Virus record (IMG/VR): IMGVR_UViG_3300027770_000026
Location: 62,001-126,000 of that record
Reading direction: 5' to 3' (one strand)
Source of the DNA: a virus
DNA: 64,000 bases
Under the pieces are notes generated by a model, which saw only the letters and a program-made list of their open reading frames with translations, made no database searches and was not told where the DNA came from. A program made the position numbers and the translations under genes. Each line of letters begins with the position of its first letter. Within the stretch, counting starts at the first letter, position 1. This document shows positions 8,978 through 56,799 of the stretch, piece by piece.

Positions 8978-8983
8978 ACTACC

Positions 8984-8989: not shown

Positions 8990-8996
8990 CACTTAC

Positions 8997-9746: not shown

Positions 9747-9748
9747 TT

Positions 9749-30444: not shown

Positions 30445-30837
30445 TTACAGCTCTAGATCCTTAGCTGTTACTGTTGATGCACTTAGGTCAACTGCACCAA
30501 CTAGGTTCAGCGCACGGATTGCATCACGTAGTCCGGTTGCTGCTGTGAGATCTGCATTAGCACCGCCTGGGTACTCAACGGCAAATGACTGCTTGGTTGC
30601 TGAACCAATATAACCATCGTTTACACCAGCAAATACTGAACCAATGTATGCGATTGTGCCGTAGTTCTGAATTGTGTTGATCACTGCAGTTATTGCGCCC
30701 GAAGGGCCTGTTTCTGCTGCTACGTTCGATGCACCAGCTGAGCCAATGTACGCAACTGTGATAAACTTTAGCGATGTACCCTGTAGGTTGACATTGCCTA
30801 CTGTTGCTGCTGGGTTAACTTTTGTAATACCTACCAT
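30445..30837 (-). CDS. Putative abundant virion protein (paralogue A)
   Basis: 130 residues starting MVGITKVNPAATVGNVNLQG. Low-charge, Ala/Gly/Val-rich beta protein. It shares M-x-GI-x-K-x-NP-x-AT and a following FITVAYI segment with the next gene. Each has its own late promoter and the same terminator, as expected for a highly expressed structural protein. No family name is known to me. Confidence 0.65.
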   Translation of the reverse strand: MVGITKVNPAATVGNVNLQGTSLKFITVAYIGSAGASNVAAETGPSGAITAVINTIQNYGTIAYIGSVFAGVNDGYIGSATKQSFAVEYPGGANADLTAATGLRDAIRALNLVGAVDLSASTVTAKDLEL

Positions 30838-30878
30838 AAAATAATCTCCTAGTAATGTAGTCTCTTGGACTATGCTTT

Positions 30879-30884
30879 TATTTA
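30879..30884 (-). promoter_or_regulatory. Late promoter element TAAATA
   Basis: GCATAAATAAA on the minus strand, about 41 bases before the paralogue A ATG, with TAGGAGA before the start codon. Confidence 0.55.
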
Positions 30885-30897
30885 TGCAAAACTCAAA

Positions 30898-30923
30898 AAG
30901 AAAGGGCCTTGCGACCCTTTCTT
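30898..30923 (-). terminator. Rho-independent terminator
   Basis: Same 26-base sequence as 30398-30423, here ending the paralogue B transcript. Confidence 0.85.
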
Positions 30924-30944
30924 TATCAAAATAATACTATTGTA

Positions 30945-31283
30945 TTACTTGGTCAGTGTTGTAGTTGCTACTGTAGCTGAGTTGTTTGCCTCTGTTGCAG
31001 CAACTGCGGTCTGCAATGCTGTAATTGATGTTGCGTCAACTGGACCACCGCTTACACCAAACATCTGCTGTGAACCAGTGTCGTACAATGGGCCAATTGC
31101 TTCAATTGTGTAGCCCATGTTGTCAAACACGCGAAGAACCTGCTGCTGAATACCTGTTACACCAGCTGGTGTTGCACCACTTACGTCGTCGATGTAGTCA
31201 ACAATCAAGAATGTAATATCGCGACCAACTAGCTCAACGCCTGTTGTTGTTGCTGATGGGTTTGCCTTTGAAATACCTGCCAT
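30945..31283 (-). CDS. Putative abundant virion protein (paralogue B)
   Basis: 112 residues starting MAGISKANPSATTTGVELVG. Paralogue of 30445-30837 by its N-terminal block. Beta-rich with a Thr/Ala-rich tail. It has TATAAATA about 45 bases upstream and TAGGAGA before the ATG. Confidence 0.65.
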   Translation of the reverse strand: MAGISKANPSATTTGVELVGRDITFLIVDYIDDVSGATPAGVTGIQQQVLRVFDNMGYTIEAIGPLYDTGSQQMFGVSGGPVDATSITALQTAVAATEANNSATVATTTLTK

Positions 31284-31998: not shown

Positions 31999-32004
31999 TA
32001 TTTA
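31999..32004 (-). promoter_or_regulatory. Late promoter element TAAATA
   Basis: CGCTAAATAC on the minus strand, five bases before ATG 31993 (leaderless class). Confidence 0.6.
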
Positions 32005-32448
32005 GCGTTCGTCAGCTTGTTGCATGAGTTCAACGCTGTCGTCGTCTTGCAGCAGTTCACGAAAGCCTGGATGCATGGGCTTAGGCCAATGTCCGTAGCT
32101 GATCCATTTGAATTCAGAATTTTCCCAGTTCAGCTTTGGTTCAAACTCTTCGAGAACAATTCCCAAGTAATTAAAATATACACTTTCATCTGAGATGTTT
32201 ACTAGCATGGGCATGAGATTGATTTCACCAAAATAGCCTGCTTCTTCACCTACTTCACGAAGCACTGTGGTCTCAGGTGATTCACCTGCTTCCATCTTGC
32301 CACCCCATGTGCTCCAATGATTGGGATAACTTATTTCTCTATTACTACGACGTGCAACACAGAACCTACGTGTCTCGGGGCAGAAGAATATACAGCCTGC
32401 AGCACGACGCTTCGTTTCGTTGGTAGGATGGAACTCATTTATTTTCAT
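32002..32448 (-). CDS. Nudix hydrolase
   Basis: 148 residues. Complete Nudix box from G50: GKMEAGESPE then REVGEEAG (G-x5-E-x7-REV-x-EE-x-G). Nudix enzymes hydrolyse nucleoside diphosphates linked to another moiety (NTPs, ADP-ribose, NAD, RNA caps). The N-terminus MKINEF and TNE resembles the targeting sequence, so it may be head-packaged. Start overlaps the nucleotidyltransferase stop. Confidence 0.92.
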   Translation of the reverse strand: MKINEFHPTNETKRRAAGCIFFCPETRRFCVARRSNREISYPNHWSTWGGKMEAGESPETTVLREVGEEAGYFGEINLMPMLVNISDESVYFNYLGIVLEEFEPKLNWENSEFKWISYGHWPKPMHPGFRELLQDDDSVELMQQADER

Positions 32449-34847: not shown

Positions 34848-35849
34848 TTATTTTGCGGAGAAGTGTACTTTGGGCATTGCGTCACGATCGCTACCCCAAA
34901 TCTGTGGAGAAGATACACGCATCTTGTCCATTACGTCTGCAATGTCAGTGAAGTACAGGGAAGTTTGGCTAGGATAGTCTAGCATGAGAATGCCAGAGAA
35001 TCCACTGGTTGCTACGTAATTATAAAAGCTGGACATACCATATCCGCGACGTATACCTTCGAGGTCACCGCGAACTAGTGCGGCATGCAGTTCTGTTGTC
35101 TTATCCGTAAAGCGGAACATGTTCTTGACCACGCTATCAGCTACAGACTTGCGTTGGGGTGCGGTCAGAGTAGGGAAATAGTTTTGCACATAGTCTATCG
35201 CAGTAAGTGATTGCTTGCCCGACAGATCAATGCCAACACTGGTCAGTGTCTGCTCCACGGCCTGTGGCTGAAACTTGGATTTAGCGGGGTCGTACAATCG
35301 ACCAGCATTGACCACACGCGACTTTATTTCAACTGCTTGCTTGCCTACCTGTATGTCGCCGCCGCCTTCGCTGCTGCCTGACCATTTGATATGTGGATTG
35401 AGCAATGCAAATGCTCGCTCGCCAGGACCAATTCCAGCACTTCTGAGCGCACTGTGACTGCTCAGTGAATTAAACAGTGCAACCGACATTGGGCCACCCA
35501 TCATCCAACTGCTAAAAGATTGAATCTGGTTTGTGGCAAGTAGTTCCGATGCATCAACATAGCCCGACGAGCCATAGCTCTTGAGCATGGCTTCTTTGGA
35601 TTCAAAACTGCCCGGTAGTCGTTCCACAATGTCAGTAAATACCGACAGGTGTTCCTTGACCATACCGTTGGCCAATGATATGTTTTCGCAAAGATGTTCG
35701 ATGTGCTTGCGATTAAGAATGGTGTAAACCTGGTTGAGCATTTCCACATCTTCGGATGCATTTACTAGCTTGTTGATTTCCAAACGGATGTCCACTGACA
35801 TCTTGTCAGTATCCTCGATCAGAAACGTATCAAAATCCAAACACTTCAT
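34848..35849 (-). CDS. Putative PD-(D/E)XK nuclease, virion region
   Basis: 333 residues from ATG 35849, with GGAG seven bases upstream and an ATGA overlap with the GH19-like gene. The segment SSEGGGDIQVGKQAVEIKS has the E...D...ExK arrangement of PD-(D/E)XK nucleases. The N-terminus MKCLDFDTFLIED could be a targeting variant. A head-packaged nuclease that attacks host DNA is a possible role; not shown. Confidence 0.6.
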   Translation of the reverse strand: MKCLDFDTFLIEDTDKMSVDIRLEINKLVNASEDVEMLNQVYTILNRKHIEHLCENISLANGMVKEHLSVFTDIVERLPGSFESKEAMLKSYGSSGYVDASELLATNQIQSFSSWMMGGPMSVALFNSLSSHSALRSAGIGPGERAFALLNPHIKWSGSSEGGGDIQVGKQAVEIKSRVVNAGRLYDPAKSKFQPQAVEQTLTSVGIDLSGKQSLTAIDYVQNYFPTLTAPQRKSVADSVVKNMFRFTDKTTELHAALVRGDLEGIRRGYGMSSFYNYVATSGFSGILMLDYPSQTSLYFTDIADVMDKMRVSSPQIWGSDRDAMPKVHFSAK

Positions 35850-36331
35850 TTTGTACTCCAGACCCATGCAGCACTACGTGCGGCACCAATGGGTGTTTCT
35901 AAGTATGTAGGTATTTTCAGCAGGTCAATGCCCAATGCTTTGCTACACTTAAAGTAGTTATCTTTTCCAACGATTTTTATAAATCCCCGTCCACGATAGT
36001 CCCATCCATCGGGTCGAGGTTCGTTTCCATTGCCATATTTACCACTGTAAACCCGTATGGCAATCTTGTCCTGTTTGTGTTCGTATAGGCTTGCTAGTGT
36101 ATAGTCAGGAAACTGTTTGGGAAAGTGTTTTTGCAAATCTGCAGCAGAATATTTGAAAGTTTCCGTCAATTTAGTTAAATTATCGCTGGCTTTCACAATG
36201 TCAACGATAAAATTGGGGCTATCTATCCTAAATTCTGCCATTGCGTCTAGTATAGCAGGCAGATATTTGTTGGCTAACACAGGTTTGACATTTGGAAACT
36301 GTTCCAAAAATTGTTCTATGGTAATGTGCAT
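35846..36331 (-). CDS. GH19-like lysozyme fold, catalytic Glu missing
   Basis: 161 residues. YRGRGFIKIVGKDNY is the GH19 substrate-binding motif, and FKYSAADLQKHFP matches the family. Aligning from YSA backwards, the first catalytic Glu (HES in active enzymes) falls on A48 (KAS), while the second Glu (TETFKYS) remains. It is probably inactive or altered, perhaps a structural or binding relic. An intact paralogue lies at 49134-50090. TAAATA ends four bases before the ATG. Confidence 0.75.
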   Translation of the reverse strand: MHITIEQFLEQFPNVKPVLANKYLPAILDAMAEFRIDSPNFIVDIVKASDNLTKLTETFKYSAADLQKHFPKQFPDYTLASLYEHKQDKIAIRVYSGKYGNGNEPRPDGWDYRGRGFIKIVGKDNYFKCSKALGIDLLKIPTYLETPIGAARSAAWVWSTK

Positions 36332-36335
36332 GTTG

Positions 36336-36341
36336 TATTTA
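36336..36341 (-). promoter_or_regulatory. Late promoter element TAAATA
   Basis: GGATTAAATAC on the minus strand, four bases before ATG 36331 (leaderless class); overlaps the end of the gene upstream. Confidence 0.5.
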
Positions 36342-37037
36342 ATCCAAACTTAGCTGTTGGATTAAAGAATGGTTAATGAATTCACTTAGCTTGTCAAGAT
36401 ATCCCTGATTGCGTAATACCTTAAAGGTCAGGTTCTCTACACCATACTGACCATTCTTTGCAAGGCCTGCTTTGCGCATGTTGTTGATCTTGTCTTTAAT
36501 CTCACGCGCCTCGTCAACATCACCGTGTTCAATCGTTTGATCAACCTGACTCATGTAGCTTTTAACACGGGCACTCACATTGCGATCATTTACTGCTGGT
36601 TGTTCCTTGCGTGGCTTCTCTATCCATTTGTCGCGTAATACTGAATAGCAGCCATTGGTAACATTAACTTGATCGATGTCTTGTGCATATAATTCTACTG
36701 GATGTCCGTGAATTTCAACGGGCATATTAAAATTCCACAAACGCTTTTTAGCGTCAAACAATTGTTCTACCAGTTCAGGATCGCAAGTTAGTTTCTTCTT
36801 GTCAACGATTAGGTGTAAGTCAAAGTCACTGTAGTCTGTATAGTTGTAACTGGCCAGACTGCCCGTTAGCTGTACGTCAACTAGGGGTAGCGGATCTATT
36901 TTAAGACTACGTGCGAATTGAAGTGCAGTTTGCAATAAATGCACCTGCACTTCTTTATCTAGCTTGCCCTGATTCCAAACTTTAGGATTAAGCTTGTCAT
37001 GGAATTGAACATTCTTATCAACGTAGCTCTGTTCCAT
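36339..37037 (-). CDS. Nucleotidyltransferase-fold protein
   Basis: 232 residues. VQLTGSLASYNYTDYSDFDLH (residues about 56-76) gives the GS...DxD signature, and PVELYAQD offers the third acidic residue. The C-terminal half is helical and charged. It is a family I recall from T4-like phages; the transferred nucleotide and target are unknown. Start overlaps the upstream stop as TAATG. Confidence 0.75.
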   Translation of the reverse strand: MEQSYVDKNVQFHDKLNPKVWNQGKLDKEVQVHLLQTALQFARSLKIDPLPLVDVQLTGSLASYNYTDYSDFDLHLIVDKKKLTCDPELVEQLFDAKKRLWNFNMPVEIHGHPVELYAQDIDQVNVTNGCYSVLRDKWIEKPRKEQPAVNDRNVSARVKSYMSQVDQTIEHGDVDEAREIKDKINNMRKAGLAKNGQYGVENLTFKVLRNQGYLDKLSEFINHSLIQQLSLD

Positions 37038-37903
37038 TACACTGGATACTTACACTTGCCCTTGGTTTCTTCGGGTGGTAGGTACTTGCCGTAATACTTG
37101 ACAATGAGACAGTTGAGGAAGTCTGTGTATTCGGGAATCTTGCTCAACAGCGCGATATCCGCTTGGTTAATTGCCGAGTCTCGCTCGTCCATGAACTGAC
37201 CTGATTCGTAGTGTAGCTGCCACTTTCTCAGCTTACCGCCTGCCTTGGCCATGATAATGTACAGTGGACCTTGGCTGTGATAGTGGGTAAATCTATTGTT
37301 GGTGTCGCCTGCGGTACACCAGCGTGTGCCCGAGCCAATTCTGCAAGCAGCTTCCTCAGTTTGTGGAATGTAGACCTTGAAGTTAGGAGTGTCAATTACC
37401 TTGTTTGCACCCTGCATTTCCTGACGTGCAACTTCCTTGCCGGATACGTCTTCTGCACCGCCTGACAGGTCGGCTAGGTCGTAGAGATCGTTTAGGCTCT
37501 TTAGCTGTAGTAGGTCAGCAACACCATTGGGATACTTGGCTAACAGTTCTTCATTGCCTGGCTCTTTGAGCTTGGTCAGAATGGTACGCTGCGACTTCTT
37601 GAACTTGTCAATGTCTGTCTTAACTTGGTTGAGGTCTTCCATCTTGAACTGACCAGCAATGTACATGTTAGCAATGAACTGTAGATTCTTGCCCTGTGGA
37701 TCAGGGTCTGCTTTCTTAAGTGCTGCTACTATGTCCCTGGAGTCTGGTTGTTTTCCTGCTGGTGTAGGATATGAATTGTCCTTTTGCGCCGCAGCTTCTA
37801 GCTTGGCCTTGAGGTTAGTGGCAATATAATCTGCACGGTCTTCCAATAGCATGGAAGCCCAGTTGCCACGTGATTCTACAATTCGTATTTCTCTAATCTT
37901 CAT
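37037..37903 (-). CDS. RWCTA-motif phage protein (paralogue 1)
   Basis: 288 residues. N-terminus MKIREIRIVES fits the targeting pattern. The C-terminal domain has FKVYIPQTEEAACRIGSGTR then WCTA, GPLYIIM, KWQLHYESGQFMDERD. The same blocks occur in 46979-48124. Cys, His and Asp in conserved blocks hint at an enzyme, but the activity is not known to me. GGAG precedes the ATG after a TAAATA promoter. Confidence 0.65.
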   Translation of the reverse strand: MKIREIRIVESRGNWASMLLEDRADYIATNLKAKLEAAAQKDNSYPTPAGKQPDSRDIVAALKKADPDPQGKNLQFIANMYIAGQFKMEDLNQVKTDIDKFKKSQRTILTKLKEPGNEELLAKYPNGVADLLQLKSLNDLYDLADLSGGAEDVSGKEVARQEMQGANKVIDTPNFKVYIPQTEEAACRIGSGTRWCTAGDTNNRFTHYHSQGPLYIIMAKAGGKLRKWQLHYESGQFMDERDSAINQADIALLSKIPEYTDFLNCLIVKYYGKYLPPEETKGKCKYPV

Positions 37904-37932: not shown

Positions 37933-39231
37933 TCAGAGGTTCTTAATATATTCTTTATACTTTGCGGGACTTTGCTTTTGTAGCAAACGGTCAAACGCTG
38001 GCCACCCGTTATTGTCACGATTGCGGCTATAATTTGCAATACTGCCTGCAGCAATTGTGCCACTTATAACAGCATTGACCATAATGGGAGCTATCACTTT
38101 TTCAAGTTGTACTAGAAAACGCTCTGAGGCATCATTATAATCTGCAGATTCTGTTAGTTCGGCTGCAAAATCTAATAGTTGCCGCGGCGAACTGTATTTT
38201 ACTATAGTGGGTATGCAGCCAGTCCATATGGAGCTGGTGCCGTGCTCGCTTACTAACGCATTTAGCGAATATACTACAAGGTCCTCAGCATCTTGTTCTT
38301 TAACTGCATGATCCAATAGCCAGGGTTCAAATGCTTTCACTCTATCCCCAATGAATCTCACATACGCTAATGCTGTTCTAGTATCGTTGAGTAGCATGAC
38401 CGCATGCTCTACAAAGGCATTACGATCAATGCCTTCTTCATCCTCGCTAGATGCTACATAGTTGTCTAGCAGTGTTTTTAGCAGTGCTTGATCACGTTCT
38501 ATTATCCCGTATATTGCTGGATTTATTTTATTATCAAAGTCAGTATATTCTAGGTAACCTGCTGCTGCTTGCGGGTCATTTAATTTCACAATATAGGGTT
38601 CAAGTTCAGGCAATCTGCTACTGGTATAATCACTTTTTTCATTGAGATATGCTATAAGCGATTGTGGAGACTTTGCAATTGCAGGTAATGCTTCCTTCCA
38701 CAACCTGTCGGTTAGTAACCGAGATTCGTAGTGGGCAATGCCCGCAGGGTCTTGCATTATGCGAGCTTGTATTTCGGATGTGGGCTTTATCATTGCAGCA
38801 TCGATATAGTACACCAGCTGCCTGACTGTTCCTGAAGCCATTATGGTGTTTAGGGCTTCAGGCCATACCATTGGTTTGTTAGTATTTTGAGCCCGTCTCC
38901 AAATGTATACCTCAATGAGTTCTGGATCGTTTACTATGAGTTTTTCAATTGACGGATCCCTCTTAGTGCCATTACTCATTCCACCATTCATAGTATATGC
39001 AAGTAATGCTTTCTGAAATACGTTTGAATCCTTTATATACAAGGGCATCCAGGCTAGTAGTTCCCCGCGGCGGGTTTTGCGATCCTCGGGGGTTTTTTCG
39101 CGATAATTGATCCGATGTAGCTTGCACTGCTTCCGCCAAACATATGACGGAATATGCTGTTCTCGCGTTTTATAACCCACTAATTTAGTGGGCGCAGTGT
39201 GAAATTTAAATAGGTCTATTGAATCAAACAT
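37933..39231 (-). CDS. YH-x2-P repeat family protein, member 7
   Basis: 432 residues, the longest of the tandem family. N-terminal block DLFKFHTAPTKLVGYK matches the shared (L/I)-(Y/F)-x-(Y/F)-H-x-x-P-x-x-L-x-G-Y motif. The rest is helical repeats with blocks such as LPELEPYIVKL. Repeats of this kind (DUF4116-like) are usually protein-binding solenoids. Last gene of the array on the minus strand. Confidence 0.7.
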   Translation of the reverse strand: MFDSIDLFKFHTAPTKLVGYKTREQHIPSYVWRKQCKLHRINYREKTPEDRKTRRGELLAWMPLYIKDSNVFQKALLAYTMNGGMSNGTKRDPSIEKLIVNDPELIEVYIWRRAQNTNKPMVWPEALNTIMASGTVRQLVYYIDAAMIKPTSEIQARIMQDPAGIAHYESRLLTDRLWKEALPAIAKSPQSLIAYLNEKSDYTSSRLPELEPYIVKLNDPQAAAGYLEYTDFDNKINPAIYGIIERDQALLKTLLDNYVASSEDEEGIDRNAFVEHAVMLLNDTRTALAYVRFIGDRVKAFEPWLLDHAVKEQDAEDLVVYSLNALVSEHGTSSIWTGCIPTIVKYSSPRQLLDFAAELTESADYNDASERFLVQLEKVIAPIMVNAVISGTIAAGSIANYSRNRDNNGWPAFDRLLQKQSPAKYKEYIKNL

Positions 39232-39234
39232 ATG

Positions 39235-39981
39235 TTATCTTCTTGCTATCTTGTTTTCTTTGTCGGCTACCCACTGTCTATGCAGCTGATCAATTTCACT
39301 TTGACTTGTGCCAGTATGACGCAGCGCATTATAGAAATATGGATACCATTCGTCAGAATTGGCTTTAACAATGGGCTCTAACTCCGGATGACGCACGCCT
39401 GTTTCCCAAGTAAAATCAATGACCAGACGTGTACTCTGTTTAATTATATCCATTAATTTACTGGGTATTTGTATATCATTTTCAAAAAGATATCCTGCAT
39501 ACTCAATTAGTATAGTATTGCGAGTATCTCTTTTATATGAGTCAGTTGTGTCCATATTCGTCAGTACGTTTTCCAATTCAGGCCAACGCTCCCCAATGGC
39601 CTCTTTGACATATTTCATTATTATTTCCGACTTGCTGATGAGCTTGAAATTTAATAGTCTGGGTTCTATTCCGGGCAATCTTTTTCCTAGTTTAGAAGCA
39701 TATCCCACAGCAAGATGTGGACTTAGTGCTAGTACTTCTTGCACATCTAGGCCAAGATCACCTGTTTCTATTGAATACCACATGGCGTCTGCTGCATCGT
39801 GCATGAATAGTGGTTTACGTTTAACTATCTGAGATCGTTCCATGGGAATTTTATCACGGAAGAATCTCACAAAGTCAGGATGTATGTCCATTACAGCCTT
39901 TGCTGCAGTTAAAGTCTCAGGATTGCTGTGGTAATTGTACAGCATAAAATCAATTTCTTGCGATGGATCCATCTCTTCCAT
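39235..39981 (-). CDS. YH-x2-P repeat family protein, member 6
   Basis: 248 residues. The motif FMLYNYHSNPETL lies at residues 12-24. Helical repeats with ERWPELENVL and VRHPELEPIV follow. The family block is less well kept after the motif (no GY). Starts five bases or less after the 76-residue gene. Confidence 0.7.
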   Translation of the reverse strand: MEEMDPSQEIDFMLYNYHSNPETLTAAKAVMDIHPDFVRFFRDKIPMERSQIVKRKPLFMHDAADAMWYSIETGDLGLDVQEVLALSPHLAVGYASKLGKRLPGIEPRLLNFKLISKSEIIMKYVKEAIGERWPELENVLTNMDTTDSYKRDTRNTILIEYAGYLFENDIQIPSKLMDIIKQSTRLVIDFTWETGVRHPELEPIVKANSDEWYPYFYNALRHTGTSQSEIDQLHRQWVADKENKIARR

Positions 39982-39982
39982 A

Positions 39983-40213
39983 TTATTTGTCCTTGTCCGC
40001 TACGGGCTTTTCGCCTGTGAGATAGGGCTTGCTAAACCACAGTTTAAACCATGCATCAGTACCGGGCTTGATATTTTTCTCGCGTTCTATTTTACGCTTC
40101 TCGGTGCCAGTCATGCTGACATTGCTGCCAGGGTATTTACTCCAGTCTACTGGCTTGGAGCTGTTAGCATAGTGATCCAACCCCGCTAGTTTACGTAGTT
40201 CATCGAGGTTCAT
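39983..40213 (-). CDS. Small conserved phage protein
   Basis: 76 residues (MNLDELRKLAGLDHYAN), with a C-terminal block GTDAWFKLWFSKPYLTGE. I recall similar small proteins in T4-like cyanophages. It splits the tandem array and overlaps the 39-residue mini-member by 14 bases. Confidence 0.65.
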   Translation of the reverse strand: MNLDELRKLAGLDHYANSSKPVDWSKYPGSNVSMTGTEKRKIEREKNIKPGTDAWFKLWFSKPYLTGEKPVADKDK

Positions 40214-40319
40214 ATTTTTTGATATCCCAATTTAAATTCACGGCCATTAAATCCGTAACGAGCAATGGCACTAATTTTTTATCCACATGATACTTGTATA
40301 AATTTAATACTTGTTTCAT
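40200..40319 (-). CDS. 39-residue mini-member of the YH family
   Basis: ATG 40319 to TGA 40200, in an ATGA overlap with member 5. Starts MKQVLNLYKYHVDKKLVPLL, which carries the LNLYxYH block but loses the Pro and GY. Either a truncated remnant or a bare motif peptide. Confidence 0.5.
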   Translation of the reverse strand: MKQVLNLYKYHVDKKLVPLLVTDLMAVNLNWDIKKYEPR

Positions 40320-41095
40320 CGGAAAACCCTTCCTTTAAATCCGCGCTCTTTTATCAATTGATATCTTGCTGAAAGATTGTGTAATTGCGCTAGATACAAA
40401 TTCCACGGTGAGTCAAAGTGTGGATAATCTTTAAGTTTTACTGAAGGTGATTCTTCATCCCAGTCGATGTCAACCGGTAGATCCATGTAATCTTCCTCGG
40501 CAGTTTCCAACCACTCTCGCCTATTAGGATTCCAATTGTAGATAGCATCCTCTAGCTCGGGTATACGTTCCCATCGTTTGCCGCCTGTGACGGCCTGATG
40601 GAAAGCTGTTACAGGATCGTCACTTATGCGGGCTAAGACTTTTTTCACAAAGTCAGGATACTTTTTTATCAGATCTTTAAGCTCAAAATGCCCAAGATAT
40701 TCGTTTAGTATTTCTGGTGCGGCTTTTATTATCTGATCAAAATACTCAGGTGCAACTATACCTAGCACATCACTGGTATAATCCGCTATCGATTCGGGAT
40801 CAGTTGCTATAATCTGCTCTACTGCGCCACGTCGTGGCCACAACTGGTCTGACACACCCTGCTTTGTGGTGCAATTCTGATAGATTTTTGCCGAACGATA
40901 TGCTATGTCTGGATCTTTTCCCAGTACGGACTGATATTTGTGTATTGCAGCAACTGCCATTTTTGCCTCGGTTGGCCCTCTCCAATAGTCAGTGTTGGCT
41001 ACTTGTTTAAACGCAATAGTTGGCACAGTTAATTGCTTATCATAGCCAATTAACTCGTTGGGAGAGCTGTGATATGTATATAAATTAAGTCTCAT
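40316..41095 (-). CDS. YH-x2-P repeat family protein, member 5
   Basis: 259 residues from ATG 41095 (MRLNLYTYHSSPNELIGYDK), the clearest form of the family motif, followed by VPTIAFKQV. Then helical repeats (KRWERIPELEDAIYN). The start overlaps member 4 by 11 bases; a longer in-frame start exists but would run 100 bases into member 4. Confidence 0.7.
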   Translation of the reverse strand: MRLNLYTYHSSPNELIGYDKQLTVPTIAFKQVANTDYWRGPTEAKMAVAAIHKYQSVLGKDPDIAYRSAKIYQNCTTKQGVSDQLWPRRGAVEQIIATDPESIADYTSDVLGIVAPEYFDQIIKAAPEILNEYLGHFELKDLIKKYPDFVKKVLARISDDPVTAFHQAVTGGKRWERIPELEDAIYNWNPNRREWLETAEEDYMDLPVDIDWDEESPSVKLKDYPHFDSPWNLYLAQLHNLSARYQLIKERGFKGRVFR

Positions 41096-41804
41096 AACCG
41101 GCTGCGCTTGCGTCTGATACTGCTTGTCTTCCGTCTTGGAAGGCCAAAGTACTAAGGTAATATTCCCATGCTGTTTTGTAAGATGTTGTGAGGCCATGGT
41201 GTCGTGTAAAGCTAAGGTGATTTAACTGAGGACTATTCTTAATGAGATCCTGCCAGTCATCCTCGGACATGCGCAATAATACGGGCTCTATTACAGTATT
41301 ACGCCGCGTGGACCGAGCAGAATATGCAATTGAAGCTGCAATATCTTTACTGAGCATTTTCAGCACCTTATATTTAAAATCAGGATCCACGTAATAGTTG
41401 TCTTTTACCAGATAGCCTAGATATTTTGCCACAAATACTGGATCCAGTTGACCTAGTATGTCTAGATATCTTGGATCCCGTTGTAATTTACTGCCAATAT
41501 GATATTTTAAATGCTCGTCACGATGCTGGGGCGAACGCAACAGTGCCATTTCAACTTCGCCACCAACAGGCCATAAATTATCAATTTCGCTATTTTTGTA
41601 TATTTCCGCTGCACGTATTGCAACGTCTAGGTCTTTACCCAGTACATCCTGATACTGTTTCATTAGTCTGACTTTTGCGTCAGTGCCAGGTATGTTTCTA
41701 ATTTTATCAAATAGAATTGTAGGGATCATCTCATGGGATTCATACCCTATTAATTCCATTGGATCAGTGTGAAATGCAAAAATGTTTCGTTTAATATTTG
41801 TCAT
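41085..41804 (-). CDS. YH-x2-P repeat family protein, member 4
   Basis: 239 residues from ATG 41804, one base after the member 3 stop. Motif IFAFHTDPMELIGYESHEMI, then helical repeats (IEPVLLRM). Confidence 0.7.
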   Translation of the reverse strand: MTNIKRNIFAFHTDPMELIGYESHEMIPTILFDKIRNIPGTDAKVRLMKQYQDVLGKDLDVAIRAAEIYKNSEIDNLWPVGGEVEMALLRSPQHRDEHLKYHIGSKLQRDPRYLDILGQLDPVFVAKYLGYLVKDNYYVDPDFKYKVLKMLSKDIAASIAYSARSTRRNTVIEPVLLRMSEDDWQDLIKNSPQLNHLSFTRHHGLTTSYKTAWEYYLSTLAFQDGRQAVSDASAAGYET

Positions 41805-41805
41805 T

Positions 41806-42651
41806 TTATTTTGTAAATCTCGATGCACGGCGTCGTGCTGCTTCTGCTTCACGTGGGGTTAGCATGCTCAGATAAAGGTCCCACGCAGTTTCATCTGACG
41901 GGAATCCTGTTTCACCGCGCCAATTTTTATTTTTATTAAAATATATTATGCGTTCTGCTTTTAGGAAAGGTGTACGCACATCTGCAATTTGTACATACAT
42001 TAAGCTTGCTAGCACATCTTGTGCTATAATATCTTCTAGTTTGCCTCTGAATTCAGGTGGAGTTCCAGCCCAATCTTCGTGTCCATGATCTTCAAGATAA
42101 TCCACTGCATCTCGCGGAGATAACTGTAATAGTGTGGGCTCTAGTTCGGGAATATGGCGCGTGACCACGAACCTTGCAAAGCGCGAAGCAAATACAGGAT
42201 CCTGTTTAATTAATTCAAATTCACGACTGTTCTTGGGCCATATGAGGTCTTTACCGTTGCCTTCATATCTAACGGATAAAGGCATTTGGTTTACTTGATC
42301 AAGAATATTGCGTAATGTTTCTTTTGGTCCAGGATATACTGCGGTACTGCGTAATAATTGCTGTATAAGGTTGAGTAATTCCTTGCTGGCACTTTTACAT
42401 AATCGTGTAATATGATATACTTCCTCAACCGATTCGGCATAACGATGTCGATTATTAATTAATTTAGTTAGAACTCTAAAAGTATTTTCCACAAGAAGTA
42501 TTAGGTCGTTGTCATGTGGCCCTCTTATTAATTTATTTTGTAGTGCGTTTGTCTGCATACTAAGTTGATTTTTAATATAGGGCAGCAGATTCATGCGCTC
42601 TTTATAGCCACTTAATTTAGAGGGTGTATCGTGATAGTCGTATAGTCGCAT
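41806..42651 (-). CDS. YH-x2-P repeat family protein, member 3
   Basis: 281 residues. Motif MRLYDYHDTPSKLSGYKERM at the very N-terminus. The rest is helical with an IPELEPTLLQL repeat block. Start overlaps the member 2 stop as TAATG. Confidence 0.7.
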   Translation of the reverse strand: MRLYDYHDTPSKLSGYKERMNLLPYIKNQLSMQTNALQNKLIRGPHDNDLILLVENTFRVLTKLINNRHRYAESVEEVYHITRLCKSASKELLNLIQQLLRSTAVYPGPKETLRNILDQVNQMPLSVRYEGNGKDLIWPKNSREFELIKQDPVFASRFARFVVTRHIPELEPTLLQLSPRDAVDYLEDHGHEDWAGTPPEFRGKLEDIIAQDVLASLMYVQIADVRTPFLKAERIIYFNKNKNWRGETGFPSDETAWDLYLSMLTPREAEAARRRASRFTK

Positions 42652-43406
42652 TAGTTTTGATGCTCGCGCTTGTTATCAATTTGTCGCATTCTCAGCGTCA
42701 AATCATCCGCGTCACTGGGATTCTTCATGCCTTTGGCTATTTCTCCCACTGCCCATCTGATCAATGCCCCACTGTTTGGATCTGCAGCATATTCTTGCAT
42801 TAGTAATTCCTCGCCCTCGGCCCAACGTTTTTTAATCATAGCTAGGAATACTGCTGTTGCCGTTACGTCTGACAACATGCGTTCACGCGCACGTTCCCAA
42901 AAACTTGCAGGCGTTTGGTTGTATTTCTTTCCTTCAAATTGTGCAGCATACAATGCAATATCCATTGCAGGAGCTGTGAGAATCCGCTCGTTGTATTGTG
43001 AATCCAATGGCAAATCAACTATGCGTTCCGCGTATTTCATACGATCTGATATGGTTCCGTCTTGATCAATTCTGTTGCGCATGTCAACATTAACGCCAAA
43101 CTTTTCCATGTATCTTATCAGATTTGTTAAATCCCGTGCATTGGCTGCTGCAAATTTTTCTTCGTTTCCGTATAACGGGGCACCTTGATACATGAAGGCA
43201 AATTCTGCAGCAAGATCAGGATCTTGCGTTATTGTTTTTCTATAATGACGCAGTGCCTGTTCATGATCGCCGGTAAGTTTGCGACTTGAACTTGCCGACG
43301 GGACCAAGGAGCGCAATCGCTGATATGCTATCGCAGGTATTTCACTTTGATAGTCATCGCCTACTAAGTGCGGGCCAGTATAATAATTGTATAGATTTAA
43401 AGGCAT
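42651..43406 (-). CDS. YH-x2-P repeat family protein, member 2
   Basis: 251 residues. Motif variant LNLYNYYTGPHLVGDDYQSE with Tyr for His, then IPAIAYQRL. Helical body with KRWAEGEELL. TAAATA ends four bases before the ATG. Confidence 0.7.
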   Translation of the reverse strand: MPLNLYNYYTGPHLVGDDYQSEIPAIAYQRLRSLVPSASSSRKLTGDHEQALRHYRKTITQDPDLAAEFAFMYQGAPLYGNEEKFAAANARDLTNLIRYMEKFGVNVDMRNRIDQDGTISDRMKYAERIVDLPLDSQYNERILTAPAMDIALYAAQFEGKKYNQTPASFWERARERMLSDVTATAVFLAMIKKRWAEGEELLMQEYAADPNSGALIRWAVGEIAKGMKNPSDADDLTLRMRQIDNKREHQN

Positions 43407-43410
43407 GCAG

Positions 43411-43416
43411 TATTTA
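43411..43416 (-). promoter_or_regulatory. Late promoter element TAAATA
   Basis: GCTAAATACTGC on the minus strand, four bases before ATG 43406 (leaderless class). Confidence 0.55.
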
Positions 43417-43436
43417 GCTGCAGGTTGGGATATGGG

Positions 43437-44168
43437 TTAGTCTCCCGGTACGTAACCCCACTTCTTAGCAGCTTCCGTACGTTCAGGAAAATCTGCTAGG
43501 TATGTTCTAACATAGTTGGCTTTTACTAATGTGCGCTCGCCTTCGGGCCAAGGTGCTTTGACCACACGCTGAATATAGGTCAGTGTAGGGTATCCCATTC
43601 TGAGGATAGTGGGTTCTGCTGCAGGCCAACGTTTACCCATTATCTGAGCGTAGAAAACCAAAAACTTGTTTTTATATTTTAGTTCGTCGTGTGTTCTTTC
43701 GGGTAAATCTAGTAGAATTTTTTCCAAGTCTGGCCAGGATTTTAAACCCACTTGCTGCATATAGAACATGGTATGATGCAGGGTGTCTGAATCGATATTA
43801 CTTTTTATTATTTTCTGTATTGCTAATTTTTCAAATTCTGGCCAATGACCTTTAAAAAATTGATGTACGTATGGTGCTAACTGTTGAATTTCAACATCTA
43901 AATCCTTATGCAATATTGCATGTTCAATTGCAGGCGATCGTTTATTGGCAATTGCAGTAGCATAAAACAATGCTTGACCAACATCGCCGGCAGCAGCCAG
44001 AGCTTTTTGCAGATATTCATCTTGCTGCTCGTATGCTTCTTCAGGAAAATCATCAGGATCTAATTCTCCCCCGTAGTATGACGCAAGAGTACGAAGCTGC
44101 GCACGGTCTGAACCAATTAGCTGCTTGGGATCATTATGATATCCCCATAAGTTCATACTTAAACTCAT
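43437..44168 (-). CDS. YH-x2-P repeat family protein, member 1
   Basis: 243 residues. Motif MNLWGYHNDPKQLIGSDRAQ. The repeats are clearest here: HWPEFEKLAI, SWPDLEKILL, RWPAAEPTIL and PWPEGERTLV, spaced about 30-40 residues. The gene overlaps the HEGRNRM-protein stop as ATGA and opens the array. Confidence 0.7.
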   Translation of the reverse strand: MSLSMNLWGYHNDPKQLIGSDRAQLRTLASYYGGELDPDDFPEEAYEQQDEYLQKALAAAGDVGQALFYATAIANKRSPAIEHAILHKDLDVEIQQLAPYVHQFFKGHWPEFEKLAIQKIIKSNIDSDTLHHTMFYMQQVGLKSWPDLEKILLDLPERTHDELKYKNKFLVFYAQIMGKRWPAAEPTILRMGYPTLTYIQRVVKAPWPEGERTLVKANYVRTYLADFPERTEAAKKWGYVPGD

Positions 44169-45720: not shown

Positions 45721-46982
45721 TTGGGCAATTTAACGGGAGTTTGTTTACGAGTCATTAGTGCAGCAAGATCGCTGCGATTAATGTAGCCAATTCTATACTG
45801 TTCCATTGGCGGTAAATCTCGCATAGATTTAAATTTGGCACTTGGTACACTGTATATCAGCTTGTAGACCTTGGTTAGGTATTCTTGTCGATATGCTTGC
45901 GGATCCACAGCAGCTTCTAATGCTACTACCAATCGGTTCACTGTGTCAACGATTTTTTCAACGGGTTCACTAAGCCAATCCCCGCCCGCTGAACGTAGTT
46001 CAATGCGGTCAGACTGAAAGTTAACACTAAGTCTACCAAATATTCGTAGAGCTTTTTGTGCTGCAGCCATATCACCTGTACGTAGTGCATCGGCGATTTC
46101 TAGTTCAGCTGCGGGAGATGCTATTTTACCCGATGCGCGAACACGATTAGCTGCGCTGGGAGCATAGCTATTAAGTTCTCTCTTAAATTGTTTCAGCACA
46201 TATTCATCGCCAAGCAGTGTAATCAACTTGAGATAATCCAGCTTGTCGTAGTTTGGTACGCTGACGTTAATGTGCAGTCCGCAAGTGCGATTGGTTTCTG
46301 CTTTTACTTTATATGCATAAAATTTAACATTATTAATGGCGTCTATAATGTCGTCTACAGCCATGGGATAGCTGACAATCTCCGCACCAATCCATTCTTC
46401 ATTACCGTCGTGGTGTTGCACAGTGCTGTCCGTTTCAAAGGTAAAATGATTGGGTTCACGTGGTCCACCATGTCCATTAAATGGTACAGTGGCATAGCCT
46501 GTTATTTTTGAAAAGCGATCTGCAGCTACTTTTATTTCTTCTAGTGCAGTACTACTAGTGGGATTTTCATAAGGCCAATCCACAATGTGGTCATACCCTT
46601 CATATACTGTCAAAGTATAATCTAGGTCTTCAGCTTCTAGAAAATCTTGCTGTTCATTTTGTACTGCATTACGAATAAATTGTTCGTAGTCATCATCTTC
46701 AATATCCAGTTCTTCTGATAGTGCTACCGCCCAGTCGTGTAGTCTACGTTCAAGCTGGGCGTTCAGTCTCGCAATTGATCCACTGCTATTAACCCCTAAT
46801 TCCCCAAAGAACTCTAGTATTTCGTCAATGCTGGTAACACGACGATTGTAAGTAAAGTCTGGAACAATTACATTATCATCACGTGGAACCAGCATCTCAA
46901 ATTCAATGCCAACTAATGCCTTGCTGCCATAAGCCTGCGCAGCAAGCCGCTGCGAACTCATTTTGATCTCGCTGAGTCTCAT
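45717..46982 (-). CDS. Amidoligase_2 family ligase
   Basis: 421 residues. N-terminus MRLSEIKMSS fits the targeting pattern. Signature blocks of the glutamine-synthetase-like amidoligase family: VGIEFEM (residues 24-30), FETDSTV, GAEIVSYPM and TCGLHINVS. These enzymes join a carboxyl to an amine using ATP and are proposed to modify proteins or make peptides. The metal/ATP Glu residues (E27, E29) are present. Overlaps both neighbours by four bases. Confidence 0.8.
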   Translation of the reverse strand: MRLSEIKMSSQRLAAQAYGSKALVGIEFEMLVPRDDNVIVPDFTYNRRVTSIDEILEFFGELGVNSSGSIARLNAQLERRLHDWAVALSEELDIEDDDYEQFIRNAVQNEQQDFLEAEDLDYTLTVYEGYDHIVDWPYENPTSSTALEEIKVAADRFSKITGYATVPFNGHGGPREPNHFTFETDSTVQHHDGNEEWIGAEIVSYPMAVDDIIDAINNVKFYAYKVKAETNRTCGLHINVSVPNYDKLDYLKLITLLGDEYVLKQFKRELNSYAPSAANRVRASGKIASPAAELEIADALRTGDMAAAQKALRIFGRLSVNFQSDRIELRSAGGDWLSEPVEKIVDTVNRLVVALEAAVDPQAYRQEYLTKVYKLIYSVPSAKFKSMRDLPPMEQYRIGYINRSDLAALMTRKQTPVKLPK

Positions 46983-48124
46983 TTTTTGTCTAGTTTCAAC
47001 GCAGAACGTGCAATTGCGCTCTTAGCAGTTTCCTCGATTGGTACGCAATTGTTCACACGCACACCATCTTTTACTTTGGTCTTAGGGTTGCCAATCTTTT
47101 TACCTTTCCAGCATTTGGGATCTAGTCGTGTTTTGATTGCTTTCTTTTCCAACAAGTTCTGCTGTTGTTCTGGTGGGCTTTCTTCGTCCCCGCTAGCCCA
47201 CGATATTGGAAAGATACGGCCGAGATTTAATATTTCGTGCCCAACATCATATTCTGTTCCGATGAACTCAGATGCTTTAGACTTTTTCTTAATTTCATCT
47301 GCATTCTTAGCCATTAGTTCCCCTATCTTTTTCATAAGACCGGGAAACAAACTGGCAAACCTTAGATCGTTAATGTCTAGACTATGTCTGTTTTCCTGTT
47401 CCGCATTTACTAACTGACGGGTTGACGCATGCAATTGCCACTTGCCGTTTTTATTCTCAAGATTTGTTTTGTCTGCAATCATGATAATTGGACCGTCAGG
47501 CATGTATCTACGTGACCAAGTTAGTCCGTTGCTACCGCCCGTACAGAAGTTGGCCTGTATGCCTTCAGCATTATTGAACGTATAGCAAGAACCATAGTTG
47601 TAGGGAATCATTATATAGAAACGATCATCGTTCATTAGCACAGTTTCGCTTCTCTCACGCTTGTGCTTTTCAACCATTTCTTGATTCTTAATTTGATCCA
47701 ATTGCGAGCTGTACTTGCGCATGGCTTTTTGTATGTCTTCAATGTTTTTAAATCTATTAAAGTCCTGATCCTTAGGCTCTAGCAAAGACCGTATGTTAAG
47801 TGCATGCCATTTGCCCAGCGTGTCTGCAGCTTCGCCGCTGATGTCTTCCCAGTTTGCATGTCCGTTTGCATACTGGCGTGCAACCCATAGGTCAAACTTA
47901 CCGCCCGACAAGTCACCATAGTTACTGGTGCTCATTACTCGATCCAGCATGTCGCTCCAGGCTTGTACGATTTTCTGTTCACTGGGACGTGGTCCCAACT
48001 TGGCAACTACATAGGGAGGAAGTGTGCCATCTGTATTCCAGTTAATCGCTATGAACTTGGCTAGTCTGGGATCTGCTTTTAGCTTTTCTGCAACGTTTGC
48101 TTCTAGTATTTTTTCTAATCTCAT
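46979..48124 (-). CDS. RWCTA-type phage protein (paralogue 2)
   Basis: 381 residues. N-terminus MRLEKILEANV fits the targeting pattern. Shares with 37037-37903 the blocks RFYIMIPYNYGSCYTFNNAE, FCTGGSN, GPIIMIAD and KWQLHASTRQLVN. Here the RWCTA block is degenerate (NFCTG). Ends in a basic domain with CWKGKKIG and NNCVPIEE. Function unknown. Confidence 0.65.
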   Translation of the reverse strand: MRLEKILEANVAEKLKADPRLAKFIAINWNTDGTLPPYVVAKLGPRPSEQKIVQAWSDMLDRVMSTSNYGDLSGGKFDLWVARQYANGHANWEDISGEAADTLGKWHALNIRSLLEPKDQDFNRFKNIEDIQKAMRKYSSQLDQIKNQEMVEKHKRERSETVLMNDDRFYIMIPYNYGSCYTFNNAEGIQANFCTGGSNGLTWSRRYMPDGPIIMIADKTNLENKNGKWQLHASTRQLVNAEQENRHSLDINDLRFASLFPGLMKKIGELMAKNADEIKKKSKASEFIGTEYDVGHEILNLGRIFPISWASGDEESPPEQQQNLLEKKAIKTRLDPKCWKGKKIGNPKTKVKDGVRVNNCVPIEETAKSAIARSALKLDKK

Positions 48125-49133: not shown

Positions 49134-50090
49134 CTATTCGTCTAGATCAGTGATGTTCAATCCTAGACGTTTGAGGTCTCGCATGTAGCGATGTTCCTCT
49201 TCCTCACTGCCAAAACTCAGCATGGTTTGCGGCGGGCCTGTACCAAAGTCCTTAGGATCTGCGTCATCTAGATCGTTGATATGTGTGCCCAGCTTGTACC
49301 AGTCGTATACGTCGCGTACACCCACTTTTACTGTACCTTTGGGGAAGGGAATTAAACTATGCTTGTGACTTTCTTCGCCCTCTTCGCCTTGCTCATCGTC
49401 GGCGTCTTCGTTGGTTTGTTCAGCATCGTCTACATCTTTTTTGTACTTTTTGTACAGCTCGCGTCTACGATCCAAATGACTCAACCCTGCATTAATTTTG
49501 CGGGTAGTAGCGGTCATACCTTTCTTTACCGTATTACCTACACGGGACTTCCAATACCATACTGCAATTCGTGCTGCATGTTTAGGTTCTGCTGCTAGGT
49601 CAGGATTGTTTACTAGGTCTAAGCCCAGTGCTTTGCCAGCTTTAGCGTAGTTATAACGTCCAGTTAATTGAATGTAACCTCGGCCGTGGAACAGTTCTCC
49701 ATCCCCGTCTTCTGTGTTGCCCAATAACTTTGCAGTTGTGGGATTGTATTTCTTTTCGTACTTGTGAAAGTGTGGATCATTATCGTTTGGCGTTTCGTGC
49801 ATGCGAGTAAAGCCCATGCTTTCGTGTGCTGTATGTGCTAGAAACTGTGCAAGCTCGTCGCCCGCCATCTTTGCATCAAGTGCTGCACGTAGTATTATGC
49901 GCTCGGGCTGTAGTAGTTCGTGCGCAGAATGAATCACTTGAACAGGGTTAGCACCAAGTTCTTGTTTGTAGTGATCCAATACGCCCTTGCTGATTGCGCC
50001 AATTCCAAATGCTGCAAGTAGAATAGCTCCAATCTTTTCCTTAATCGATGCTTCTTCTAGTGTTTGTTCAGTAAGCTCATGTGCTCGCAT
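49134..50090 (-). CDS. GH19-family lysozyme/chitinase-like enzyme, targeted N-terminus
   Basis: 318 residues. N-terminus MRAHELTE fits the targeting pattern. A hydrophobic stretch (21-34) follows. The GH19 domain keeps both catalytic Glu (AHESMGF, E90; RMHE, E99) and HGRGYIQLTGRYNY. The C-terminal third is an acidic linker and a small unknown domain. It would cut peptidoglycan; its N-terminus suggests carriage in the virion rather than use as an endolysin. Confidence 0.85.
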   Translation of the reverse strand: MRAHELTEQTLEEASIKEKIGAILLAAFGIGAISKGVLDHYKQELGANPVQVIHSAHELLQPERIILRAALDAKMAGDELAQFLAHTAHESMGFTRMHETPNDNDPHFHKYEKKYNPTTAKLLGNTEDGDGELFHGRGYIQLTGRYNYAKAGKALGLDLVNNPDLAAEPKHAARIAVWYWKSRVGNTVKKGMTATTRKINAGLSHLDRRRELYKKYKKDVDDAEQTNEDADDEQGEEGEESHKHSLIPFPKGTVKVGVRDVYDWYKLGTHINDLDDADPKDFGTGPPQTMLSFGSEEEEHRYMRDLKRLGLNITDLDE

Positions 50091-52091
50091 TTACCACTTC
50101 CTACAAGACCAATAACGAGCTTTGGTTCTTGGTCCCGGAGTTTCGCAGTGATGACGTGCGCGGAAGCTTCTACGGCGGGCAGGATTGCTCTTCTTGATGC
50201 GCATGTTAGGATCGCCAAAGTTTACTTTCTTAATGTTGCCAGTCTTGGGATCCTTCACATAGACCTTAAATTTTTTAACATCGCCCTGCATGGGTTTACC
50301 CAATTGCACCTTGTGTCCGTGATATTCAGCTTCCATGATAGAGGAAGCATCTAGCATGGCCATTGTTGCGTTGTCTGCAGCTAGTAGTACAGTGTCGTGA
50401 TTGGCACGTAGCACTGTGGTTTCGATCAGTGTGTTGCCCATTTCAATAAAGAATACGTCGCCTTCGGATACATCTTCACTCTTGTTATTCTTGTGTTGAA
50501 ACAGATTGAATGCTTGACGAGCTGTTGCTGGCATGCTACCGATGTAGAATTTCATTGCAGGGACTCTGTCATACTGCTTAGTTAATACAGTCTCTGGCTT
50601 ATCCAGGTTTACTGTTGCTGTCATCTCACCGTCGCGTGATTTTATTGTAAGTGTTGCTTTAGTGGCATCAATTTTCTCAAACTTTATGACGAGGAAGGTC
50701 CCAGATATGCCATCGCCAATACCAGAGTGATTCTTTACTTTAACACGAATTGGCTGATCTTTGTAAGCATCATACCATTCCATGTCAGCATTGCTACCAT
50801 GCCATTTAGGATCTGCTGAGTTTCCTGTTCCCTCTTCCATTGGTCCAGCTTGTCCTGCACGACGTTGATTAGCGTCTAGTTTTTCAGACACACGTTGTCC
50901 TAGTTGCTTTTTAATCCATGGTATTACTGTATCGTTAATATACTTTTGTGCAGCAGGATCATCGTTAGGGTCTACCCCAGGCTTTAGTTTAGGCAAGGAT
51001 TTCAATTGTGACAGAATCTTTCCTTTAACTGCTGGATCAGCTTTGCTAAGTGCTATGCTGATAAATTGTTCACCTTCTTGGTGTCTACCTTGCATAAAAT
51101 ACACTATTGCTTTGGCTAGTTTAGCATCGCTAAATCCAGCACCCATAGCACCAAACGCTCCGCCTATCTGATTACCGGTATTTTCTTCTACATCCTGTTC
51201 GTGTATTGGATCACCATATTCAGTCCAACGGTCGTGTTTTGGATCAAAAATGGGTTTGTCGTTAATAGCAGCATCGCGGAACATTTTAGCTATTTCCTTG
51301 CTCATGCCGTACTTGTCTTCAAACTCTTCGTCACTTATGTTGGGATCATGTATGTCGTCGTCAATTTCTGGGTTGTCTAGCTCGGCGTCAAGTCTTGACA
51401 TTTTGCTTTCATGTACTGTAGCTGGCTCTAGGTCTGCTAGATCAACTTCTGATCCAACAGGCTCATGGCCATCATCAATTTCAAAATCTACTAGCGCAGC
51501 ATTGTCGGCTAATAGCTTTACTAGCACGCCATATAGTTCTGGATGACCTTTGACTCTGACTTCATCACCTGGACTAAAACGTGCAGGCATGTTTATTTGT
51601 TTTTCCGTAATATGAGGGCGTGGGCCAGCAGGAGTTGGCTCTGCCTTAGTTGGCTTGACTTCCCATTTGCGCCCAGTTTGTACACTCTTTCGATTGCACA
51701 TTTTTTCTAATCTATCCATCTCACTACGTTGTGCAAGGCTATTGTCTGGGCCTGCACCCTTAAATACTCGCCACGAACGACCGTTAATAAAGACTTGAAA
51801 GTTTGTAGTTACCGCAGTCGAAGCTGAAGGGGTAATAGTATCATTTGGTTCCTGAGAAGTTGATCGCCATGACCATACTTTGCCGCTCTCTGCAGTTTTG
51901 CGTTGGCACATGCCTGCTATACGATTTTCCTCACGCACCTGTTCGGGACTGTCATCCGGACCTTTACCTGGCAATATCTTCCAAGGTTGACCGTCGATAC
52001 GTATTTCAAAATTGTTTACTTCATGTTCTACGCCATGATTGCGGTCGCGGCTGGCCATATTCTCGTTAACTTGTATATCGTGTAGTCTCAT
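50091..52091 (-). CDS. Multidomain virion-region protein with duplicated N-terminal module
   Basis: 666 residues. N-terminus MRLHDIQVNE fits the targeting pattern. Two copies of a ~55-residue module follow: FEIRIDGQPWKILPGKGPD... and FQVFINGRSWRVFKGAGPD.... Then a KOW/SH3-like segment (PGDEVRVKGHPELYG), an acidic linker, a helical domain, a beta domain, and a C-terminal basic Cys motif (GDPNMRIKKSNPARRRSFRA then RHHCETPGPRTKARYWSC). I recall that last motif as a recurrent C-terminus in T4-like phage proteins. Function unknown. Confidence 0.7.
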   Translation of the reverse strand: MRLHDIQVNENMASRDRNHGVEHEVNNFEIRIDGQPWKILPGKGPDDSPEQVREENRIAGMCQRKTAESGKVWSWRSTSQEPNDTITPSASTAVTTNFQVFINGRSWRVFKGAGPDNSLAQRSEMDRLEKMCNRKSVQTGRKWEVKPTKAEPTPAGPRPHITEKQINMPARFSPGDEVRVKGHPELYGVLVKLLADNAALVDFEIDDGHEPVGSEVDLADLEPATVHESKMSRLDAELDNPEIDDDIHDPNISDEEFEDKYGMSKEIAKMFRDAAINDKPIFDPKHDRWTEYGDPIHEQDVEENTGNQIGGAFGAMGAGFSDAKLAKAIVYFMQGRHQEGEQFISIALSKADPAVKGKILSQLKSLPKLKPGVDPNDDPAAQKYINDTVIPWIKKQLGQRVSEKLDANQRRAGQAGPMEEGTGNSADPKWHGSNADMEWYDAYKDQPIRVKVKNHSGIGDGISGTFLVIKFEKIDATKATLTIKSRDGEMTATVNLDKPETVLTKQYDRVPAMKFYIGSMPATARQAFNLFQHKNNKSEDVSEGDVFFIEMGNTLIETTVLRANHDTVLLAADNATMAMLDASSIMEAEYHGHKVQLGKPMQGDVKKFKVYVKDPKTGNIKKVNFGDPNMRIKKSNPARRRSFRARHHCETPGPRTKARYWSCRKW

Positions 52092-52390
52092 AGCTTTTTA
52101 ATACTCTTAATGAACTCAGTAAGGTCAGTATCACTGACATCACTTGCTTGTTCTTCTATACGACGAAGACTGTTAGTAAATTTACTAGCATCTCGCGCAC
52201 GTACTGCATTTAGTAACTTGCGTTCTAGGTTTTCTGCAGTTTCGCGGTCGTAAGATTCGTGAATGCTATCAAGAAAATTAATAAAACTACTCAGCACGTG
52301 ACTGGCACGGCTATTGATTACTTCCTGGCGACTCTTATTTGGTACCAAGTCATTAATCTCTTCAAGTATGCTGCGAGTTTTACGCTTCAT
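52088..52390 (-). CDS. Conserved helical phage protein
   Basis: 100 residues, all helix (MKRKTRSILEEINDLVPNKS, then SRASHVLSSFINFLDSI). Matches by memory a small family in T4-like cyanophages with no known role. Overlaps the next gene as ATGA. Confidence 0.7.
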   Translation of the reverse strand: MKRKTRSILEEINDLVPNKSRQEVINSRASHVLSSFINFLDSIHESYDRETAENLERKLLNAVRARDASKFTNSLRRIEEQASDVSDTDLTEFIKSIKKL

Positions 52391-56440: not shown

Positions 56441-56451
56441 GCTTGTTCACC

Positions 56452-56796: not shown

Positions 56797-56799
56797 GGG

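Follow-up and report, generated by a model that had tools for sequence, protein, structure and literature searches.

The internal head proteins of phage T4 (IPI, IPII, IPIII and Alt) and their T-even counterparts form a diverse set that has only a short N-terminal peptide in common (PMC3012670, PMC9026906). The T4 protease gp21 cleaves after the motif L/I-x-E, and ten N-terminal residues are enough for targeting to the head (PMC9026906, PMC3012670). Since the Salmonella giant phage SPN3US already provides a large, tandemly arranged head-protein family, paralogue family B, with 20 members found in virions (PMC5694885), tandem expansion alone is not a new observation. Here we describe a tandem gene array in a 64,000-nucleotide stretch of viral DNA (hereafter the window), which comprises bases 62001-126000 of the 265,892-base record IMGVR_UViG_3300027770_000026. 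The array lies at 37933-44168 on the minus strand and encodes proteins in which a short N-terminal block, the tag, precedes a body of diverged helical repeats. We tentatively favour the reading that these are diversifying repeat-scaffold binding proteins that are probably packed in the phage head, along with proteins carrying a domain that we name WCT, and injected.

The record encodes a gp21-type prohead protease (S77; PF03420, expect value (E) 1.2e-26) at record positions 214675-215106 and a gp23-type capsid protein (PF07068, E 4.8e-101) at 216524-217486, from which we conclude that its source is a T4-like jumbo phage. The likeness to the T4 internal proteins extends from this phage type to the varied bodies behind one short N-terminal peptide and to the L/I-x-E leaders found in the WCT partners and in a 27-copy array of a relative. 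Unlike the T4 proteins, those of the window have a tag that differs from the T4 capsid-targeting sequence (CTS) and is without a cleavage site, their bodies are repeat scaffolds in long tandem arrays, and their packaging is something that we infer. The likeness to SPN3US family B is one of description: both are big, mostly adjacent paralogue families of a giant phage with no assigned function. In contrast to the family described here, family B belongs to a phiKZ-type phage, its members were detected in virions, and the available text of that paper reports no shared portable tag (PMC5694885).

The tandem array and its N-terminal tag

Seven contiguous related genes, designated A to G, make up the array together with a 39-residue open reading frame (ORF), Y, and an unrelated 76-residue ORF, X. 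An original prediction made from the sequence alone had proposed a tandem expansion of seven genes and a 39-residue ORF with a common N-terminal block, which is what we found at these positions; it had also called the genes overlapped and cotranscribed, and of this the overlaps and tight spacing stand (intergenic gaps of -14 to +30 bp), such gaps making co-transcription plausible. The block near the N-terminus is clear in six of the seven members (A, B, C, D, E and G) and degenerate in F. Its mean identity to the block of C is 0.475, compared with a best value of 0.29 in 300 shuffles, so the similarity is not due to chance, which the original prediction had named, along with unrelated folds, as its refutation. 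The block is 40% identical among the six clear members, whereas identity between the bodies, taken over all seven, averages 25%. Its consensus of ~16 residues is about N-L-Y-x-[YFK]-H-x-[ND]-P-x-x-L-x-G-Y, and it is predicted to form two short helical turns. With a 20-residue tag profile built from other viruses only, members C, B, E, D, A and G took ranks 1-6 among the 88 window ORFs (E 1e-7 to 8e-3); F was not matched by this profile and is tied to the family by its body, which matches C over 220 aa (E 6e-7). We found no further copies of the tag family elsewhere in the 265.9 kb record.

In order along the window, member A (37933-39231, 432 aa) has the tag DLFKFHTAPTKLVGYK at 39169-39216 and a long, degenerate RWPE-type repeat body, and member B (39235-39981, 248 aa) has the tag MLYNYHSNPETLTAAK at 39898-39945 and both RWPELE and RHPELEP blocks. 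ORF X (39983-40213, 76 aa) is a small gene without a tag match that lies between B and Y. Y itself (40200-40319, 39 aa) carries the NLYKYH tag start, the first half of the block, at 40257-40304, is without a repeat body, and scores E 2e-4 with the tag profile in a 9-sequence search; it may be either a truncated copy or a free tag. Member C (40316-41095, 259 aa from the ATG at 41095) has the tag NLYTYHSSPNELIGYD at 41039-41086, and member D (41085-41804, 239 aa), closest to C (36% over 160 aa), has NIFAFHTDPMELIGYE at 41739-41786; the starts of C and D were taken shorter than their longest ORFs. Member E (41806-42651, 281 aa) has the tag RLYDYHDTPSKLSGYK at 42601-42648, member F (42651-43406, 251 aa) the degenerate tag NLYNYYTGPHLVGDDY at 43350-43397, and member G (43437-44168, 243 aa), in which the RWPE repeats are clearest, NLWGYHNDPKQLIGSD at 44106-44153. 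All are on the minus strand.

Behind the tag, the bodies consist of helical repeats of the RWPE type, 26 residues long and diverged; diverged helical repeats with RWPELEP-type blocks had been proposed. An RWPE-unit profile built from other viruses placed six members (not D) within the top seven window ORFs, albeit with weak single scores (best E 5e-4 to 7e-4), and an AlphaFold2 model of C is an all-helical alpha-solenoid with a predicted local distance difference test score (pLDDT) of 84.6. The rankings with the tag and RWPE profiles thus identify the window proteins as divergent representatives of one tag/RWPE family. No specific known fold was found for the solenoid of C: Z scores reached 8.1 to designed repeats and were below 7.6 to HEAT-like proteins, and we name no fold because such scores are not specific for helical repeats.

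No sequence relative was found in the PDB, and Pfam, PHROGs, NCBIfam and PADLOC gave no credible family for the window members. Several candidate identities were dropped. For TPR, only F scores, at 15-21 bits, all under the curated Pfam cut-offs, and the other sub-threshold Pfam matches (Uricase, HTH_35, FF) likewise look like chance or helical-repeat bias. An ADP-ribosyltransferase identity, suggested by the YHGS-like start, had neither family nor fold in support. The DUF4116 repeats (PF13475), which we take to be helical with a period and A/Y spacing similar to those of the RWPE units, had no match in the record at E<=10; the profile stays under its cut-off in the window genome and in relatives, where the best match is 11.2 bits in one relative against a cut-off of 24.9.

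The tag in other viruses and a 27-copy array

The tag is found well beyond the window. Its DNA pattern matched 37 stretches in IMG/VR, compared with about one expected (as estimated from base frequencies), and in 257 Gb of bacterial and archaeal genomes the single match was to a chance frame. In IMG/VR, 109 stretches matched a pattern written at the DNA level for the repeat unit (W-P-E-x-E, nine residues, A-Y-x-Y-A), commonly with a period of 78 bp, or 26 residues, and part of the ORFs in these stretches begin with MNLYxYHSNPExLxGYD followed by RWPE units. Degenerate peptide scans with the single window proteins C and G gave no relatives, and profile A1 matched nothing in ten contigs that have only the nucleotidyltransferase neighbour in common. 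Searches of deposited phages by tblastn (with members C, G and A, tag/RWPE relatives, the tag alone and a synthetic RWPE repeat) returned nothing convincing, although low-complexity masking may hide repeats, and at the sensitivity of the search none of 50,697 deposited phage records yielded a tagged protein.

Three kinds of body stand behind the tag: RWPE helical repeats, leucine-rich repeat (LRR)-like bodies (ITSLPDNLTVGGDLYLSGT...; examples in L131, L132, L135, L136 and L146) and non-repeat bodies (L068, L070 and L059). The tagged protein of L131 was modelled as repeated strands (pLDDT 88), and its PDB matches in a fold search were mostly LRR proteins, whereas the window members are alpha-solenoids; the tag is the only part that they share. 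In the models of C and of the L131 protein alike, the tag folds into two short turns at matching residues; the prediction is confident in the solenoid model and of low confidence (about 50) in that of the LRR protein. Since solenoid and LRR models both have this tag in front, the block is not a cap that belongs to a single fold. The original prediction had not recognised that the block can be parted from the repeats and that in relatives it precedes bodies of unrelated fold.

Four relatives (L131, L135, L145 and L146) have a gene run in the window's order, with helicases 52-55% and UvsW-like proteins 48-62% identical to those of the window, and carry tag-LRR genes near a homologue of window gene 52088-52390. 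In L070 the tag genes are beside homologues of 32002-32448, 36339-37037 and the window's WCT gene. Judged by these neighbourhoods, related phages therefore differ in the body that follows the tag although the genomic niche is the same. As a separate observation, L028, L043, L051, L077, L083 and L110 have multi-copy RWPE-repeat genes with a different conserved N-terminus, MIIITPHPDRLEDPDFKDIVGYDDG, which is a second shared start block.

The 84.9 kb contig G011 opens with 27 tandem tag genes, nearly all with 4-bp overlaps. All 27 copies have the start MKLRDL[FL]EA-M[DN]LYKYHSNPE and all 27 frames are open; the leader, MKLRDL[FL]E/A, contains the L/I-x-E motif of capsid targeting. Selection was estimated on this array, the window copies being too diverged for dN/dS (nonsynonymous over synonymous substitution rates), from the proportions of nonsynonymous and synonymous differences (pN and pS) by the Nei-Gojobori (NG86) count, which ignores recombination between repeats. 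The leader has a pS of 0.54 and a pN/pS of 0.02, and the tag a pS of 0.49 and a pN/pS of 0.05, so the tag in this array is under strong purifying selection. The first two repeats, in contrast, have a pS of 0.15 and pN/pS values of 1.17 (bootstrap 0.98-1.42) and 1.30 (1.11-1.54). Since repeats recombine and the count takes no account of it, a ratio above 1 is no more than suggestive, whereas the difference between tag and repeats can be taken as firm. Among the internal repeat units, 122 of 124 are distinct. Residues E6, I9, A16 and Y19 of the unit are nearly invariant and form its framework, and the hypervariable positions (14, 15, 17, 18, 21 and 22, with position 18 at 3.5 bits) are on one helix, where their helical spacing suggests that they form an exposed face. 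The original prediction had read the local expansion as diversification towards a binding or defence role; diversification and binding gain support, mainly from this array, and the defence role is unproved, no member matching a PADLOC defence model at E<=0.1 in a library that does not cover anti-defence proteins as a class.

WCT-domain neighbours and the phage head

The gene directly downstream of A (37037-37903, minus strand) encodes a protein with the WCT domain (G-T-[KR]-W-C-T...G-P-L-Y; found by profile) and a CTS-like N-terminus, MKIREIRIVE/S. It is a homologue (34%) of EST35_0205 of phage PA5oct (phrog_28193), and among deposited sequences the closest homologues come from the PA5oct group of Pseudomonas jumbo phages (34-35% identity). 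EST35_0205 begins with MKLFEVFTLYE and is recorded as a structural protein by electrospray ionization tandem mass spectrometry (ESI-MS/MS). A second, diverged WCT-domain gene (46979-48124, minus strand) with the CTS-like N-terminus MRLEKILE/A lies upstream of the array; the end of this gene has a KKIGNPKTKxKxGVRVNNCVP segment in common with a 1019-aa ORF with repeated QGVAEG-type segments (L008:6099-9158).

The WCT domain had no match in the tag members of the window, which carry the tag in its place. A profile search showed it to be fused in many contigs to RWPE repeats like those of the window members, and phrog_28193 covers both parts, with positions 117-203 matching window gene 37037-37903 and about 225-292 matching RWPE proteins. 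Neighbouring WCT and tag genes occur in the window and inside L045 as well as at the head of the G011 array. The motif L/I-x-E occurs at residues 6-16 in 28 of 39 distinct WCT N-termini, whereas 2000 draws from internal stretches gave 2.7 on average and 10 at most; as the sequences are related, the counts are not independent. In sequence, most WCT N-termini resemble T4 capsid-targeting peptides. CTS-like N-termini were present in nine of the 88 window ORFs, compared with 2.4 expected, mostly in a module at 31-53 kb.

A link between the tag and the head module comes from two relatives. In L045 the gene order is portal-like, gp21, gp22-like, gp23 and homing-endonuclease-like, followed by tag and WCT genes, and in L130 the tag genes come after gp23 with two small genes between; the portal, gp22 and homing labels are from position and a reading of the sequence.

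Other features of the window were also recorded. N-termini of the form M[KR]xxE[IFL]...[LI]xE are scattered over 28086-61929, most of them in the 31-53 kb module, which suggests further candidate head-targeted proteins. GH19-type endolysin/chitinase-like genes flank the array on both sides (35846-36331 and 49134-50090). There are other small tandem paralogue groups, comprising two FDRLFF-type, two M[AV]GI-type and three KPxxxxKGxDN-type genes (8997-10507, 30445-31283 and 55736-57231), and a phage-borne transfer-messenger RNA gene (8642-9015, minus strand) with the tag peptide ANDSNYDMALAA. The T4 late-promoter box TATAAATA occurs five times in the window, which is not above the chance count, and not at the array operon; exact boxes lie shortly upstream of minus-strand genes at 17369, 27010, 31329 and 57237.

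Possible roles of the tagged proteins

Each product of the array is a two-part protein, a conserved ~16-residue N-terminal tag joined to a diversifying repeat body, which here is modelled as an alpha-solenoid of diverged 26-residue RWPE units. The body could act as a binding scaffold in which framework residues hold the helices together and the positions of one helix differ between units. As it is found on folds that are unrelated to each other, the tag may be a common docking or targeting peptide. We propose that the proteins would be packed into the phage head along with the WCT-domain proteins and then injected, after which they may bind host or rival factors, for example defence or regulatory proteins, as a diversified version of the T4 internal proteins.

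Several points weigh against this proposal. The motif L/I-x-E is present neither before nor within the tag in any window member, so the case for packaging rests on relatives and neighbours; the window copies are not classed as T4 CTS proteins because they are without the cleavage leader, a defining feature, and they may still work like internal proteins. No tag proteins have been detected in virions, the mass spectrometry evidence being for the WCT partner in another phage. The tag genes of the L131 group are by replication genes rather than head genes. The pN/pS of the repeats barely exceeds 1, by a count that is blind to recombination between repeats, and the non-repeat tagged bodies (L068 and L070) need not be binders.

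The main rival, which we regard as possible and less likely, is that the proteins are not packaged and that during infection the tag brings the repeat proteins, inside the cell, to a single shared partner of phage or host origin (for example RNA polymerase, a membrane site or the WCT protein), with the bodies serving as adaptors, decoys or anti-defence binders. This would suit the window copies without a cleavage leader, the tag-LRR genes that adjoin helicase and primase genes in relatives, and the repeated adjacency of WCT genes, which can be fused to RWPE repeats. It does not sit well with the conserved capsid-targeting-like leader that precedes the tag throughout the 27-copy array, or with the position of the L045 and L130 genes in the head module after gp23.

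It is unlikely that the tag anchors the repeat proteins as minor structural components at one capsid, tail or baseplate site, for decoration or adhesion, with the variable repeats contacting the host surface or the environment. Adhesion would suit diversifying surfaces, and tag genes do lie between tail genes (sheath/tube) in L141 and beside baseplate-like genes in L059, as well as after gp23 in L045 and L130. However, a leader cleaved by the prohead protease fits an internal rather than a surface location, many paralogues of differing length are unlike an ordered lattice subunit, and other copies are far from virion genes. Largely neutral tandem duplication and repeat shuffling, leaving little function past a conserved start that is kept by recombination or translation needs, would account for repeat pN/pS values near 1 and for Y and the short copies looking like remnants, but is likewise unlikely: leader and tag are under purifying selection (pN/pS 0.02-0.05) with high synonymous divergence, the framework residues are conserved and all 27 array copies have open frames.

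A broader view can be put forward, which we regard as speculative and rather doubtful: T4-like jumbo phages would hold a repertoire system in which a fixed N-terminal address peptide is set on interchangeable hypervariable alpha-solenoid or LRR scaffolds. The genes, in tandem arrays with up to 27 members, would diversify through selection and the shuffling of repeats, and their products would be loaded into heads and injected as a mixture of binders directed at varying targets in hosts or rivals. What is new is that one tag is portable between unrelated folds of repeat and that, while the tag is constrained, the body that follows it diversifies. Should this view be correct, a previously unrecognised short peptide would mark a whole class of phage effectors whatever their fold and could be used for finding such effectors in uncultured viruses, and phages would maintain stocks of diversified repeat-based binding proteins that parallel, in viruses, the modular repertoires used for recognition.

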